Shown: piece after piece, positions 12,948-64,000 of the stretch
Layout: the number at the start of each line of letters is the position of its first letter
How positions within the stretch are numbered: the first letter of the stretch is position 1
Source: an uncultured bacterium
GTDB taxonomy: Bacteria; Bacillota_I; Bacilli_A; RFN20; CAG-826
Length of the DNA: 64,000 bases
Reading direction: 5' to 3'
Assembly (NCBI GenBank): GCA_949288485.1
Contig: CASEKC010000002.1
Coordinates: 124,001-188,000 of the forward strand
Notes under the pieces: model-generated
Seen by the model: only the letters and a program-made list of their open reading frames with translations
Databases searched by the model: none
Told to the model about the DNA's origin: nothing
Position numbers and translations under genes: made by a program

Positions 12948-12981
12948 CCAATAAAAGTAATTACTAATTCGTTTTTATTGG
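12948..12981 (+). promoter_or_regulatory. Candidate ECF-sigma promoter of the sigma/anti-sigma operon
   Basis: CCAATAA (12948-12954), 15 bases, then CGTTTTTAT (12970-12978) and TGG. The same two blocks with exactly the same 15-base spacing occur before the lipoprotein gene at 14872. A shared two-block motif upstream of an ECF sigma gene and a neighbouring target is the usual sign of autoregulation. The assignment of -35 and -10 roles is inferred. Confidence 0.6.
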
Positions 12982-12994
12982 AAAAAGGGTGAAA

Positions 12995-13516
12995 ATGATT
13001 GAAAGTAGTTTAAAAACATACCTAAAAGAATTCCAGCAAGATAACTTGCAAAATTTTAATAAGTTTTATGAATCTACAAAAAAATCTGTATTTTATAACA
13101 TTCTTTCATTTATAAAATCGCATGAAACTAGTGAAGATATTTTGCAGGATACTTATGTTAAATTCTTAAAGAACGTAAAAGAAATTAAGCATCACACATC
13201 GATACTTGGTTATCTTATTATGATAAGTCGTAATCTATCTTTGGATTATTTAAAAAAAATTAAAGAGAGCGAAATAGAAGATGATTACCAGGTAAAGCAT
13301 GAAGATGATTTTAACCAAGATAAACTTCTTCTTTTAGAAAAATTAAAAAATGTTTTAAAAGAAAAAGAATATGAGGTAATTATCTTCCACATTTATGACG
13401 AACTTACTTTTGAAGAGATAAGTTCGTTAACAAATACCCCGTTAGGTACAACATTATATCGATACAACAATGCAATTAAAAAAGCAAAGGAGGTGCTAGC
13501 AAATGAAACATATTGA
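12995..13516 (+). CDS. ECF-family RNA polymerase sigma factor
   Basis: About 173 residues. Region 2 includes ILQDTYVKFLKNV and LGYLIMISRNLSLDYLKK; region 4 includes LTFEEISSLTNTPLGTTLYR, a helix-turn-helix. The frame opens at a GTG at 12989, but the ATG at 12995 has better spacing from AAAGGG. It ends in TGA and overlaps the downstream anti-sigma gene by 14 bp. The gene carries a Shine-Dalgarno (AAAGGAGGTG) for its partner inside its own 3' end, so the two are translationally coupled. Probably controls its own promoter and that of the lipoprotein gene. Confidence 0.9.
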   Translation: MIESSLKTYLKEFQQDNLQNFNKFYESTKKSVFYNILSFIKSHETSEDILQDTYVKFLKNVKEIKHHTSILGYLIMISRNLSLDYLKKIKESEIEDDYQVKHEDDFNQDKLLLLEKLKNVLKEKEYEVIIFHIYDELTFEEISSLTNTPLGTTLYRYNNAIKKAKEVLANETY

Positions 13517-14642
13517 TGATCAAAAAATTATTGATTCATTAAGCGGTGTTGAAAATTATGAAATTAAAACAACTGCTGATGATATTTTAGCTGCCTTCGA
13601 AAAAGAAAAGGTGAAAGAACCTTTAATTGACAAGAAGAAAAAATTCAATTTCAACTTATTCTTCAAAATTTCTATTCCTGCTTTAGCCGCATGTTCTATC
13701 GCATTAATCGTTGTTTTCTCTATTCCAAAAGACGGTGGAGATATTATTATTCCTCCAAATCCTTCAAATAATCAATCTATTTTAAATTTAAATGAAGAAC
13801 AACAAAATATTATAGGAAAAGAACTAAATACTTTAGCATCTTTCCAAGCTAACTTAAATGCAGTATCCACTTCTTCCCTTCCAGCATTTAATAATGGAAT
13901 TTCTACATTAGATAATGACGATTGGGATGACAATGATTATCAATCATTTGATATCGATTCCGTTATTGATTTATATGATCCATATTCTCACGCTGTTATT
14001 AATCTTATTAATAATAAAGAATTTAATTTATCAAATACTTCTATTGAAAATGGTGATTTTGGAAATATATTAACATTAACTAGTGGCCAAGAAGTTTTAA
14101 AAGTTGAATATAACATTGCTATTGAAACTGGAAGAAATGACTTCTTAATGGAAGGAATGTTAACAACTAATACTGGTTCTTATCCAATTACAATCTTTAC
14201 AGAAAAAGAAGGAAATGAAACTGAAGTTGAAACTATTATTGAATATTCTTCAACTAATGTTGTAAAAATTGAACAAGAAAATGAACCAGGTAAATGGGAA
14301 AGTGAAAATTCTATTTCTTATGCAACATATAAATCAAAAGATGAAGCATATCATGATGATTTATTCTTAGAAAAATTCACTTATGAATATGAAAATGAAT
14401 TAGATGATAGTCAAAGAGAAATTGAAATGGGTGTTGAAATTGAAAAGAATTCTTCATTCTTCGACCAAGAATCTTTAAGTCTAGAAGTTTTACATCATGA
14501 TTTAAAAAATGTATATTTTGAATTTGAATATGAGCTTGAATATCCAGAAATTGAAATTGAAGATGAATGGATTAGCTGTACAATTAATAATGATGGATCA
14601 AGACTATACGAATATAGAGGAGATAGTCAGACTCGTAATTAA
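13503..14642 (+). CDS. Probable membrane-anchored anti-sigma factor with large extracytoplasmic domain
   Basis: 379 residues. A cytoplasmic N-terminus (1-57, including TADDILAAFEKEKVKEP and a KKKK stop) precedes one transmembrane helix (about 58-77, SIPALAACSIALIVVFSIP). An outside domain of about 300 residues follows, rich in Glu, Asn and beta-strand-like segments. Its place directly after and overlapping an ECF sigma gene, plus the single-span topology, supports an anti-sigma role. No zinc-binding ZAS motif was seen, so this is by context. The outer domain resembles the neighbouring lipoprotein (IEQENEPGKWESENSISY here, QQESESEWNESENEFEY there). Sensed signal unknown. Confidence 0.65.
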   Translation: MKHIDDQKIIDSLSGVENYEIKTTADDILAAFEKEKVKEPLIDKKKKFNFNLFFKISIPALAACSIALIVVFSIPKDGGDIIIPPNPSNNQSILNLNEEQQNIIGKELNTLASFQANLNAVSTSSLPAFNNGISTLDNDDWDDNDYQSFDIDSVIDLYDPYSHAVINLINNKEFNLSNTSIENGDFGNILTLTSGQEVLKVEYNIAIETGRNDFLMEGMLTTNTGSYPITIFTEKEGNETEVETIIEYSSTNVVKIEQENEPGKWESENSISYATYKSKDEAYHDDLFLEKFTYEYENELDDSQREIEMGVEIEKNSSFFDQESLSLEVLHHDLKNVYFEFEYELEYPEIEIEDEWISCTINNDGSRLYEYRGDSQTRN

Positions 14643-14670
14643 ATTAATTCTTTAAAAAAATTAATATAAG

Positions 14671-14697
14671 GGCGGAATTGGTAAAATTCCGTCTTTT
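14671..14697 (+). terminator. Terminator after the sigma/anti-sigma operon
   Basis: GGCGGAATT (14671-14679) pairs with AATTCCGTC (14685-14693) through one G-T pair and is followed by TTTT. It lies 29 bp after the anti-sigma stop. The rest of the 300-bp gap to the next gene is AT-rich and holds only the lipoprotein promoter. Confidence 0.8.
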
Positions 14698-14871
14698 AAT
14701 TTATATAATAATGAATAGCTATTAATAAAAATATATCTATAATTATCCATTTTCTTTTAACAATTCTATAAATTTTATAATTTAATGTAATTAAATTAAA
14801 AAATTTTTTATACTAAAAAATACGATAACTATCGATATTTTTAAATTTCTTAAAATTTTTTTAATTTTTTT

Positions 14872-14904
14872 CCAATAATTTTTATAGGTTGCTCGTTTTT
14901 ATGG
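14872..14904 (+). promoter_or_regulatory. Candidate ECF-sigma promoter of the lipoprotein gene
   Basis: CCAATAA (14872-14878), 15 bases, then CGTTTTTAT (14894-14902) and GG. Both blocks and the spacing match the site before the sigma gene at 12948. The start codon is about 45 bp downstream, behind a Shine-Dalgarno (AGGAGG). Confidence 0.6.
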
Positions 14905-14946
14905 TATCAAAACAAAAAGAACAATTAATTTTAGGAGGAAATATAC

Positions 14947-15969
14947 ATGAAAAAAAATAAATTATTTGTCTTATTACCAGCTATCGCAATCGGTGGAGCA
15001 TTATTAATGGCTTCTTGCGCAACTACTTCTGATAAGCCAGTCCCACTAACAACTGAAGATAATAAACCATCAACCGACCCTTCAAAACCAGGTGGAAATG
15101 AAGAAAACCCTTCAACAGATCCTTCAAATCCAGGTGGTAATCAAGTAATTGATGAAGCTAGTGAAGTTAAAAATGATGAGTTATCAAATTTACAAGCTGT
15201 TACAGCTATGAATTTATTATCATTCAATAGCCCTTCTGCAACAATCGGATTAAATTCAATTACAACAAGAGATTTTAACCGCCCAATTACTGATCAAGAA
15301 AAACAAGAAGTTATTAACATGCTCCCAACATTAGATTTATTAATGATGGAAGATCAAGCATTTACATCAACAATTACTGAAGTTAATGAAGTTGTTAATA
15401 ACCAAACATATCAATTTAAAGAAGTTATTGAATATAAAGATAATACAATGGCATCTTCAAATATTACTCTTTATTTCAATATCACAAATTCATGGACAAG
15501 AGGTGAAAACTTCATGCAATCTCTTGAAGGTGTCGCTTTATTAGCAAATGATCCTACCTTCTACTCATTCTCTTCATTAACACATTATGAAAATGACCGT
15601 GGTGAAGTAGAAGAGGAAAGAAACTTCCGTATTCAAACAGGTCAAAATTCATATATACTTGTTCAACAAGAAAGCGAAAGCGAATGGAATGAAAGCGAAA
15701 ATGAATTTGAATATTTAATTGTTGAAAACGGAAGAAGAGTCAATAATTATTCAATCTCAATTGAAAATGAATGGAATAAAAAGTCTGTTTCTTATGAATC
15801 AAACGAAAAAGAATATGAAATGCAAATCATTGAAAGAAACGGTGAAAAATATTATGTCGTTGAATATGAAAACGAAAGCGGGTGGAATGAAACTGAAGCA
15901 TTATTAGTTTTCAAAAAGATTGTTGATCAAGCTGGAAATGCTAGATTCGAAGAAGTATTCAATTGGTAA
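14947..15969 (+). CDS. Secreted lipoprotein, probable ECF-sigma target
   Basis: 340 residues. A lipoprotein signal peptide, MKKNKLFVLL to a lipobox LMASC, places Cys at about residue 24. A Pro/Ser/Gly linker with two imperfect repeats follows (STDPSKPGGNEENP and STDPSNPGGNQ). The mature domain ends in a Glu/Asn/Tyr-rich beta-like region. I do not recognise the family. Similarity of its C-terminal half to the outer domain of the adjacent anti-sigma factor, and the shared promoter motif, suggest the two act in the same envelope-sensing circuit, perhaps by competing for one ligand. Function not established. Confidence 0.8.
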   Translation: MKKNKLFVLLPAIAIGGALLMASCATTSDKPVPLTTEDNKPSTDPSKPGGNEENPSTDPSNPGGNQVIDEASEVKNDELSNLQAVTAMNLLSFNSPSATIGLNSITTRDFNRPITDQEKQEVINMLPTLDLLMMEDQAFTSTITEVNEVVNNQTYQFKEVIEYKDNTMASSNITLYFNITNSWTRGENFMQSLEGVALLANDPTFYSFSSLTHYENDRGEVEEERNFRIQTGQNSYILVQQESESEWNESENEFEYLIVENGRRVNNYSISIENEWNKKSVSYESNEKEYEMQIIERNGEKYYVVEYENESGWNETEALLVFKKIVDQAGNARFEEVFNW

Positions 15970-15988: not shown

Positions 15989-16014
15989 AGCTGCTAGGAA
16001 AAAAACTAGCAGCT
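15989..16014. terminator. Bidirectional terminator between lipoprotein and helicase genes
   Basis: AGCTGCTAG (15989-15997) and CTAGCAGCT (16006-16014) form a perfect 9-bp stem with an A-rich loop, placed between two convergent genes and 1 bp from the helicase stop. A T-rich tract follows on the plus strand. Confidence 0.85.
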
Positions 16015-62747: not shown

Positions 62748-63599
62748 TTAATCATTATTTTCTAAATTATAGAAGTATTCTTTTAATTCTTCTTTAAAAG
62801 AAAGTAATGATTCATTATTTATTAAAGAAGAATCATATATAAATGTATATTTTTCATTATTATTTTCTTTATCAATTAAACTAGAATATAAAAGAGTATT
62901 ATATTCATCATTAAATAATCTACTTACATCATAAAAATAATTATTTTTATTATCTTCATATATTAAATTAGTTAAACTACTACTTTTTGAAGAATATTCT
63001 CCAAAAAGTAAAATAAATTCTAAATTATCATTATTATCTATATTAAATTTAATAAAGATCATTCCTTCATTTATTCTATCATTAGAAATAATATAATAAT
63101 TTGTAATATTTAAATTGTTTTTATCTAATAATGAAGAAGGTATATCAAAAACATAATAATTAGATAAAAAATCATATTTTTCTTTTTCTATATCTAATTC
63201 TTTTTTAAATGTTTCTTCATTATTAAATATTTTTATACTTTCGCTTACTTCTCCACCAATTCCTTGACTTCCATCTTCTCCAGAAGGGTTTTTATCTCCT
63301 GGAGCATTATTTCCAGCACTAACATTTAAAGCAAAAGGTAAAGATAAAATACCAATAAAAATTAAGCAAACTAAGGAAGTAACACTAATTTGTAAAAATA
63401 ATTTTTTATTAAAAATAAAGACATGTTTTTTCTTTTTTGATTTTTCTTTTTCTTTTAAAGTAGAAAAATCAAGTGAAGAAAAAACATTAGTTTTCATTTC
63501 ATTTAATTTTTCTTCGTTAAAAAAGTTGCTATTATTAGAAATAGTGTTATTTATGCTTGTTTCTAATTCTTTTTCAATTTTTTTATTTATCATTTTCAT
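62748..63599 (-). CDS. Probable membrane-anchored anti-sigma factor, second copy
   Basis: 283 residues. A cytoplasmic N-terminus (about 1-68, ending KSKKKKHVFIFNKK) precedes one membrane helix (about 70-92, ISVTSLVCLIFIGILSLPFA). The outer domain of about 190 residues starts with a Gly/Pro-rich linker. The ATG overlaps the sigma-factor stop (ATGA), the arrangement of a sigma/anti-sigma pair. No zinc motif was seen. The outside domain is different from that of the anti-sigma at 13503. Probably sequesters the upstream sigma factor. Confidence 0.62.
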   Translation of the reverse strand: MKMINKKIEKELETSINNTISNNSNFFNEEKLNEMKTNVFSSLDFSTLKEKEKSKKKKHVFIFNKKLFLQISVTSLVCLIFIGILSLPFALNVSAGNNAPGDKNPSGEDGSQGIGGEVSESIKIFNNEETFKKELDIEKEKYDFLSNYYVFDIPSSLLDKNNLNITNYYIISNDRINEGMIFIKFNIDNNDNLEFILLFGEYSSKSSSLTNLIYEDNKNNYFYDVSRLFNDEYNTLLYSSLIDKENNNEKYTFIYDSSLINNESLLSFKEELKEYFYNLENND

Positions 63600-64000
63600 A
63601 TACTTCCTTTTTGTTTTCTTTTTTTGTTAATTTCTTTTTTTAACTTTTCTAAACTTCTTCGATAAATACTTTTTACAGTATTTATCGAAGAATATTTATT
63701 GTTAGAATTTATTACTATTTCTTTAAATGTTTGATCTAAATAAATATGTTTAATAATAATATCTAGTTCAGTTTCATTTAAAATAGATAAATATTCATCC
63801 ATTTTATATTCATTTTTAGAATAATCATCTTTTTCTTTTTCATTTATTTCTTTTAAATAAATAACATCTTCGATATCAACTCTTTTATTTTCTTCTTTTT
63901 TAAATTCGATAATTTTATTTTTAACAATCGTTAATAAATAATATTTAAGATTGTTAATTTTCTTATTTTCTTTTAAAAGTTCGTTAAAAAGAATGATAAA
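63596..64000 (-). CDS. ECF-family sigma factor, partial (N-terminus beyond the right edge)
   Basis: The minus strand is open from the window edge to the TGA at 63596, at least 134 residues. Sigma region 2 ends INNLKYYLLTIVKNKIIEFK, comparable to the LxxIxRNxxLDxLR pattern. Region 4 reads IYLDQTFKEIVINSNNKYSS followed by TVKSIYRRSLEKLKKE, a helix-turn-helix. It is translationally coupled to the anti-sigma gene. The start codon is outside the window; an internal ATG at 63802 is not the true start because region 2 lies upstream of it. Confidence 0.85.
   Translation of the reverse strand, partial: FIILFNELLKENKKINNLKYYLLTIVKNKIIEFKKEENKRVDIEDVIYLKEINEKEKDDYSKNEYKMDEYLSILNETELDIIIKHIYLDQTFKEIVINSNNKYSSINTVKSIYRRSLEKLKKEINKKRKQKGSI

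Follow-up and report, generated by a model that had tools for sequence, protein, structure and literature searches.

A predicted autoregulated ECF sigma factor circuit with a CCAATAA-type promoter and a lipoprotein paralogous to the putative anti-sigma factor in uncultured gut Bacilli

Genes and predicted features of the sigma factor locus

The window, i.e. the whole stretch of 64,000 nucleotides that was analysed, harbours genes for an ECF sigma factor, a putative anti-sigma factor and a lipoprotein, together with two promoter-like sites (P1 and P2) and two hairpins resembling intrinsic terminators (Table 1). The first gene encodes an ECF (group IV) sigma factor which consists of the sigma2 and sigma4 domains only, joined by a short linker. 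Its product matched the Pfam domain Sigma70_r2 (4.5e-8, above the cut-off) and the NCBIfam model sigma70-ECF (53.8 bits, cut-off 42.9), while Sigma70_r4_2 scored 21.1 bits and thereby stayed under its cut-off of 25.7. The ATG at 12995 is the likelier start codon compared to the mechanically assigned GTG at 12989, since the relatives share the ATG.

Table 1. Coordinates of the predicted features in the window.
Feature	Position	Strand	Basis
P1 -35 element CCAATAA, sigma/anti-sigma operon	12948..12954	+	exact match; kept in congeners
P1 -10 element CGTTTTTAT, sigma/anti-sigma operon	12970..12978	+	exact match
ECF sigma factor, 173 aa, regions 2 and 4 only	12995..13516	+	Pfam, NCBIfam, conserved ATG
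Putative anti-sigma factor, 379 aa	13503..14642	+	position, overlap with the end of the sigma gene, family-wide synteny
Intrinsic-terminator-like hairpin, 3' of the anti-sigma gene	14668..14696	+	consensus scan only
P2 -35 element CCAATAA, lipoprotein gene	14872..14878	+	exact match; conserved in relatives
P2 -10 element CGTTTTTAT, lipoprotein gene	14894..14902	+	exact match; conserved in relatives
Lipoprotein, 340 aa; lipobox ...LLMASC, Cys24	14947..15969	+	profile comparison; conserved family-wide
Intrinsic-terminator-like hairpin, 3' of the lipoprotein gene	15989..16014	+	consensus scan only

The putative anti-sigma factor is made up of about 55 N-terminal aa, a single transmembrane segment assigned by eye to approximately residues 56-75, and a large outer domain. 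An overlapping downstream gene whose product has one transmembrane segment is present in nearly all loci of the family, the anti-sigma role being putative. Searches of this protein and of the lipoprotein against Pfam and NCBIfam gave nothing significant. The N-terminal four-helix anti-sigma domain of class I (ASDI) averages about 101 aa (PMC7406223). With about 55 aa preceding the transmembrane segment and two short helices predicted by AF2 at low confidence (pLDDT about 20-35), the layout of the protein appears nearer to the two-helix arrangement of class II than to class I. The PDB search with the complete AF2 model (pLDDT 45) gave no hit below E 0.09.

The motif CCAATAA-N15-CGTTTTTAT is present at 12948-12978 and 14872-14902, in both cases without mismatch and with a spacer of exactly 15 bases, as the sequence-only reading had stated for a pair of blocks upstream of the sigma gene and the lipoprotein gene. 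By analogy to the numbering of the sigH promoter (PMC6411747), transcription is predicted to start near 12982 at P1 and near 14906 at P2.

A second pair of genes for an ECF sigma factor and a putative anti-sigma factor (L252) is located at window positions 62748-64000 on the minus strand and runs past the window end. Its upstream region is devoid of CCAATAA and contains GCACCAAAA, similar to the upstream regions of L040 and L041. Furthermore, two primary-type (sigma-70) genes (L249 and L250; G000:C1, about 89.8-92.2 kb) are arranged in tandem in this small genome.

Occurrence of the motif in the genome, the genus and the family

The pattern search for further regulon members in the whole genome (1.36 Mb, 15 contigs) revealed three exact copies of CCAATAA-N15-CGTTTTTAT. 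No site deviates from the motif at a single position, and eight deviate at two positions. The reversed pattern gave eight matches with up to two mismatches, about as many, so that the two-mismatch matches are regarded as background. All three exact copies precede genes in the correct orientation, the exact motif being confined to gene starts in its own genome rather than equally common in coding or random sequence.

The sigma factor was matched in 22 of the 26 congeneric genomes, strongly in 21 of them. Across these 26 genomes the genus pattern CCAATAA-N15-CGTWTTWAT had 39 exact matches compared to one for the reversed control; nearly all of them precede a sigma gene or a lipoprotein gene, and the motif is kept upstream of the orthologous sigma genes. 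The counts in the genome and the genus, set against the reversed-pattern controls, rule out a chance similarity of P1 and P2. Five genomes lack a close ortholog of the sigma factor; four of them have no match at all, and the fifth (G025) has a single match away from a matching gene start. One-mismatch matches in the congeners were located mostly within genes where they were inspected and are therefore treated as background rather than as additional regulon members.

The gene order sigma factor, anti-sigma factor, lipoprotein recurs in the fully read loci with three exceptions, namely one inserted gene in G006, a contig break in G010 and, in G014, a distant lipoprotein gene that is located on a different contig but has the same promoter type. 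The genome G024 encodes two paralogous modules with -10 elements that are unlike each other but alike within each module (CGTATTAAT/CGTATTTAT and TGTACTAGT/TGTACTAGT). The fourth base of the -10 element is the same in both promoters of a locus in 21 of 22 cases, a count which included some wrongly anchored sites.

In the sigma promoters L211, L213 and L214 (of G022, G012 and G018, respectively) the start codon is located three bases past the -10 9-mer. Counted as in sigH, the predicted 5' end of the mRNA falls exactly on the A of this ATG, which would make the transcript leaderless. A separate group of ECF paralogs (L191-L193 in G009, G022 and G018) has -35 elements of the TCAAACA/CAAACA type and the -10 element TGTATTAAT; these sigma genes are likewise followed by a putative anti-sigma gene.

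Relatives of the sigma factor were detected in 134 of 224 genomes from 35 genera. The whole genus and many further genera of the family have forms of the motif upstream of their sigma and lipoprotein genes. For the family scan 72 loci were pooled and searched with the pattern xxAAYAA, 15 or 16 bases, YGT, which had been picked without reference to the partner promoter. This generic pattern was found upstream of 58 of the 72 sigma genes and 48 of the 53 lipoprotein genes, compared to 3.8-4.0% in shuffled sequence. Both promoters of one locus usually bear the same version of the motif, the identity of the -10 elements within a locus being 8.0 of 9 positions versus 5.8 +/- 0.2 with shuffled partners. 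However, the lipoprotein promoter of the nearest relative matches nearly as well (8.0 versus 7.8, p = 0.13, not significant), so that the co-variation partly reflects shared ancestry.

The confinement to gene starts together with the conservation at orthologs argues for the earlier proposal of an autoregulated ECF circuit in which the motif would be the recognition sequence of the sigma factor.

A cvpA-like gene as a probable lineage-limited third target

The third exact copy of the motif is located on another contig (G000:C1:206150, minus strand) in an intergenic region 37 bp upstream of a gene encoding a cvpA-like membrane protein of 185 aa (Pfam Colicin_V, PF02674; 42.9 bits, cut-off 29.3). 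In all four closest species (G000, G016, G020 and G010) the cvpA ortholog is preceded by the motif with at most one mismatch to the genus pattern. The motif is absent upstream of the cvpA orthologs of G011, G019, G023 and G025; for that of G015 just 86 upstream bases were available for inspection. A general role of cvpA as target was rejected given the restriction of the site to the group of four species, where it seems to have been acquired recently and in this lineage alone.

The lipoprotein and its relation to the putative anti-sigma factor

In the profile comparison the lipoprotein matched the outer domain of the putative anti-sigma factor with a probability of 97.7 and an E-value of 1.4e-12 over 180 columns, while the controls were negative (10.8 for the reversed profile, at most 0.3 for eight column-shuffled profiles). 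The computation thus identifies the lipoprotein as a paralog of this outer domain. Its AF2 model (pLDDT 62) predicts N-terminal helices followed by an antiparallel meander of 14 strands, for which the comparison with the PDB gave nothing better than E 0.09; the confidence of both models is too low to assign a fold. A second copy of the lipoprotein was looked for in the own genome and was not found.

The lipoprotein gene is the constant partner of the sigma module across genera. Since the lipoprotein always accompanies the sigma factor and is paralogous to the sensor, a role in feedback or ligand handling is suggested. The main rival to this interpretation accepts the promoter assignment and regards the lipoprotein, and with it the cvpA-like protein, as an envelope-stress effector rather than as a feedback or sensor element, which we consider a serious possibility at somewhat less than even odds. 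ECF regulons commonly include envelope effectors, and the third target encodes a membrane protein of the Colicin_V family. However, the homology of the lipoprotein to the outer domain of the anti-sigma factor and its constant association with the module suggest a shared ligand or shared signalling.

Sigma factor residues and promoter specificity

In the solved sigH promoter complex of Mycobacterium tuberculosis R186 forms a hydrogen bond with the first G of the -35 element and S182 with the second, and the flipped T of GTT is bound by T76 and N77 in the specificity loop (PMC6411747). Aligned to sigH, the sigma factors with CC-type promoters never have R at position 186, where N, S, E, Q or similar residues are found instead, and mostly have W or Y at position 182. 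All eight sigma factors of a sister clade with V182/R186 have GTAATAA promoters with G at the first position, whereas the -35 element begins with C or T for all 53 other sigma factors whose promoter was located. The GT/R186 sigma factors form a single clade, and their match of R186 with G therefore represents essentially one evolutionary transition, although the change runs in the direction that the structure predicts. Since S182/R186 is missing where the promoter has CC and the clade with R186 has G, the CC-type -35 element is best read as the own specificity of the focal sigma factor.

At positions 76/77 the clade of G000 has T/S-S together with CGTT. More generally, both the focal clade and the GT clade combine T or S at position 76 with CGTT; most other sigma factors have K, E, Q or G there and A in the promoter. 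G006 breaks this rule by combining S76 with A. This match between residue 76 and the -10 base, which was read off after the fact, may be taken as supportive but not as proof. A literature search retrieved no ECF promoter of the CCAAT or CCAAC type; the main ECF classification was outside this search, so that the priority of the motif is not established.

The motif might instead be the operator of an ordinary transcription factor that controls the lipoprotein gene together with the sigma operon, and an inverted repeat overlapping P1 (CCAATAAAA...TTTTTATTGG; window positions 12948-12981) is indeed operator-like. This repeat is, however, restricted to the closest species and missing at P2, at the cvpA site and in most relatives; a palindromic operator was discarded because the repeat was found solely at P1 of the closest species. 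Furthermore, the spacing is fixed at 15 bases, plausible starts follow the second block at the distance expected of a -10 element and the choice of bases follows the sigma residues 186 and 76, which makes an operator improbable.

Matches resembling sigma-70 promoters are plentiful in this AT-rich sequence, though not above shuffles. It seems very improbable that P1 and P2 are housekeeping (sigma-A) promoters which resemble each other by accident in an AT-rich genome, since the motif has just three exact copies in the genome and no resemblance to TTGACA/TATAAT, and it is conserved across genera along with the focal sigma factor. Recognition by another ECF sigma factor of the same genome is hardly credible either, because the second sigma factor, whose gene pair at the right end of the window would speak for such a reading, retains the canonical S182/R186 in its helix (NTVKSIYRRSLEK) and lacks the motif in its upstream region, while the motif and the focal sigma factor co-occur across the genus.

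Proposed regulatory circuit

CCAATAA-N15-CGTTTTTAT is most probably a promoter read by the sigma factor encoded at 12995-13516 as part of an autoregulated circuit, an explanation to which we assign a probability of about 0.87. We infer that the sigma factor would transcribe its own operon including the gene of the membrane-anchored anti-sigma factor, the lipoprotein gene and, in this species group, the gene of the cvpA-like membrane protein. In the resting state the sigma factor would be held at the membrane by the anti-sigma factor, until an envelope signal acting on the outer domain of the latter releases it and the expression of its own operon is amplified. Sequestration, signal-driven release and positive autoregulation are assumed here after the known ECF scheme. 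The genome encodes one M50 (site-2-type) protease, so that regulated proteolysis may be possible. The outside-exposed, sensor-like lipoprotein would most likely act in feedback and tune the signalling, either by competing with the sensor for its ligand or by presenting this ligand.

To this already known kind of circuit the analysis adds a predicted third target, an apparent specificity for CC-type -35 elements and the paralogy of the lipoprotein to the outer domain of the anti-sigma factor. Only tentatively, and as possible rather than probable, we propose a previously undescribed module present family-wide, in which a CC-type ECF sigma factor would be dedicated mainly to the expression of a lipoprotein that copies the sensor domain of its own anti-sigma factor, the chief output being a feedback on its own sensing. 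The recurring sensor-like lipoprotein suggests such a feedback design, with a regulon that would consist almost only of the circuit itself. The motif also provides a clean, testable candidate promoter for an uncharacterised sigma factor group of uncultured gut Bacilli, and the natural series of sigma factors and promoters (CC versus GT at -35; A, T or C at -10) may extend the known code between ECF residues and promoter bases.

Comparison with known ECF systems

The focal system resembles canonical ECF (group IV) systems in its sigma factor of sigma2 and sigma4 only, the overlapping downstream gene for a putative anti-sigma factor and the promoter of its own. A review names AAC in the -35 box and CGT in the -10 box as hallmarks of ECF promoters (PMC8103513). 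The focal promoter contains CGT and, at -35, AAT (AAT or AAC in the relatives) preceded by CC. The sequence-only reading that the motif is unlike the common ECF consensus has thus to be revised, since the central AA, the spacing and register and the CGT at ECF distance are canonical, and the motif differs by CC instead of GG and T instead of C. Compared to the canonical systems the -35 element has CC in place of GG and AAT in place of AAC, and S182/R186 of the sigma factor are replaced.

SigH of M. tuberculosis, which recognises GGAAYA-GTT promoters (PMC6411747), is similar in the promoter geometry and in the combination of a flipped T at -9 with T or S at residue 76. It differs in the -35 element (GG versus CC) and in S182/R186 versus Y182/N186 of the focal sigma factor. 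With phmmer E-values of about 1e-5 to 1e-4, both proteins show a weak overall sequence similarity.

SigW of Bacillus subtilis recognises a CGTA-type -10 and a GAAAC-type -35 element and keeps R186. Its R at residue 76 parallels the K or E of those relatives of the focal sigma factor which have CGTA-type promoters, whereas R186 and the GAAAC-type -35 element set it apart from the focal sigma factor. In the sigma-E system of Escherichia coli, RseB as extracytoplasmic partner modulates the membrane anti-sigma factor RseA. The focal module may work in a similar manner through an extracytoplasmic partner of its membrane anti-sigma factor. No fold match was found; in contrast to RseB, the focal partner is a paralog of the outer domain of the anti-sigma factor and has its own promoter of the sigma factor's type.
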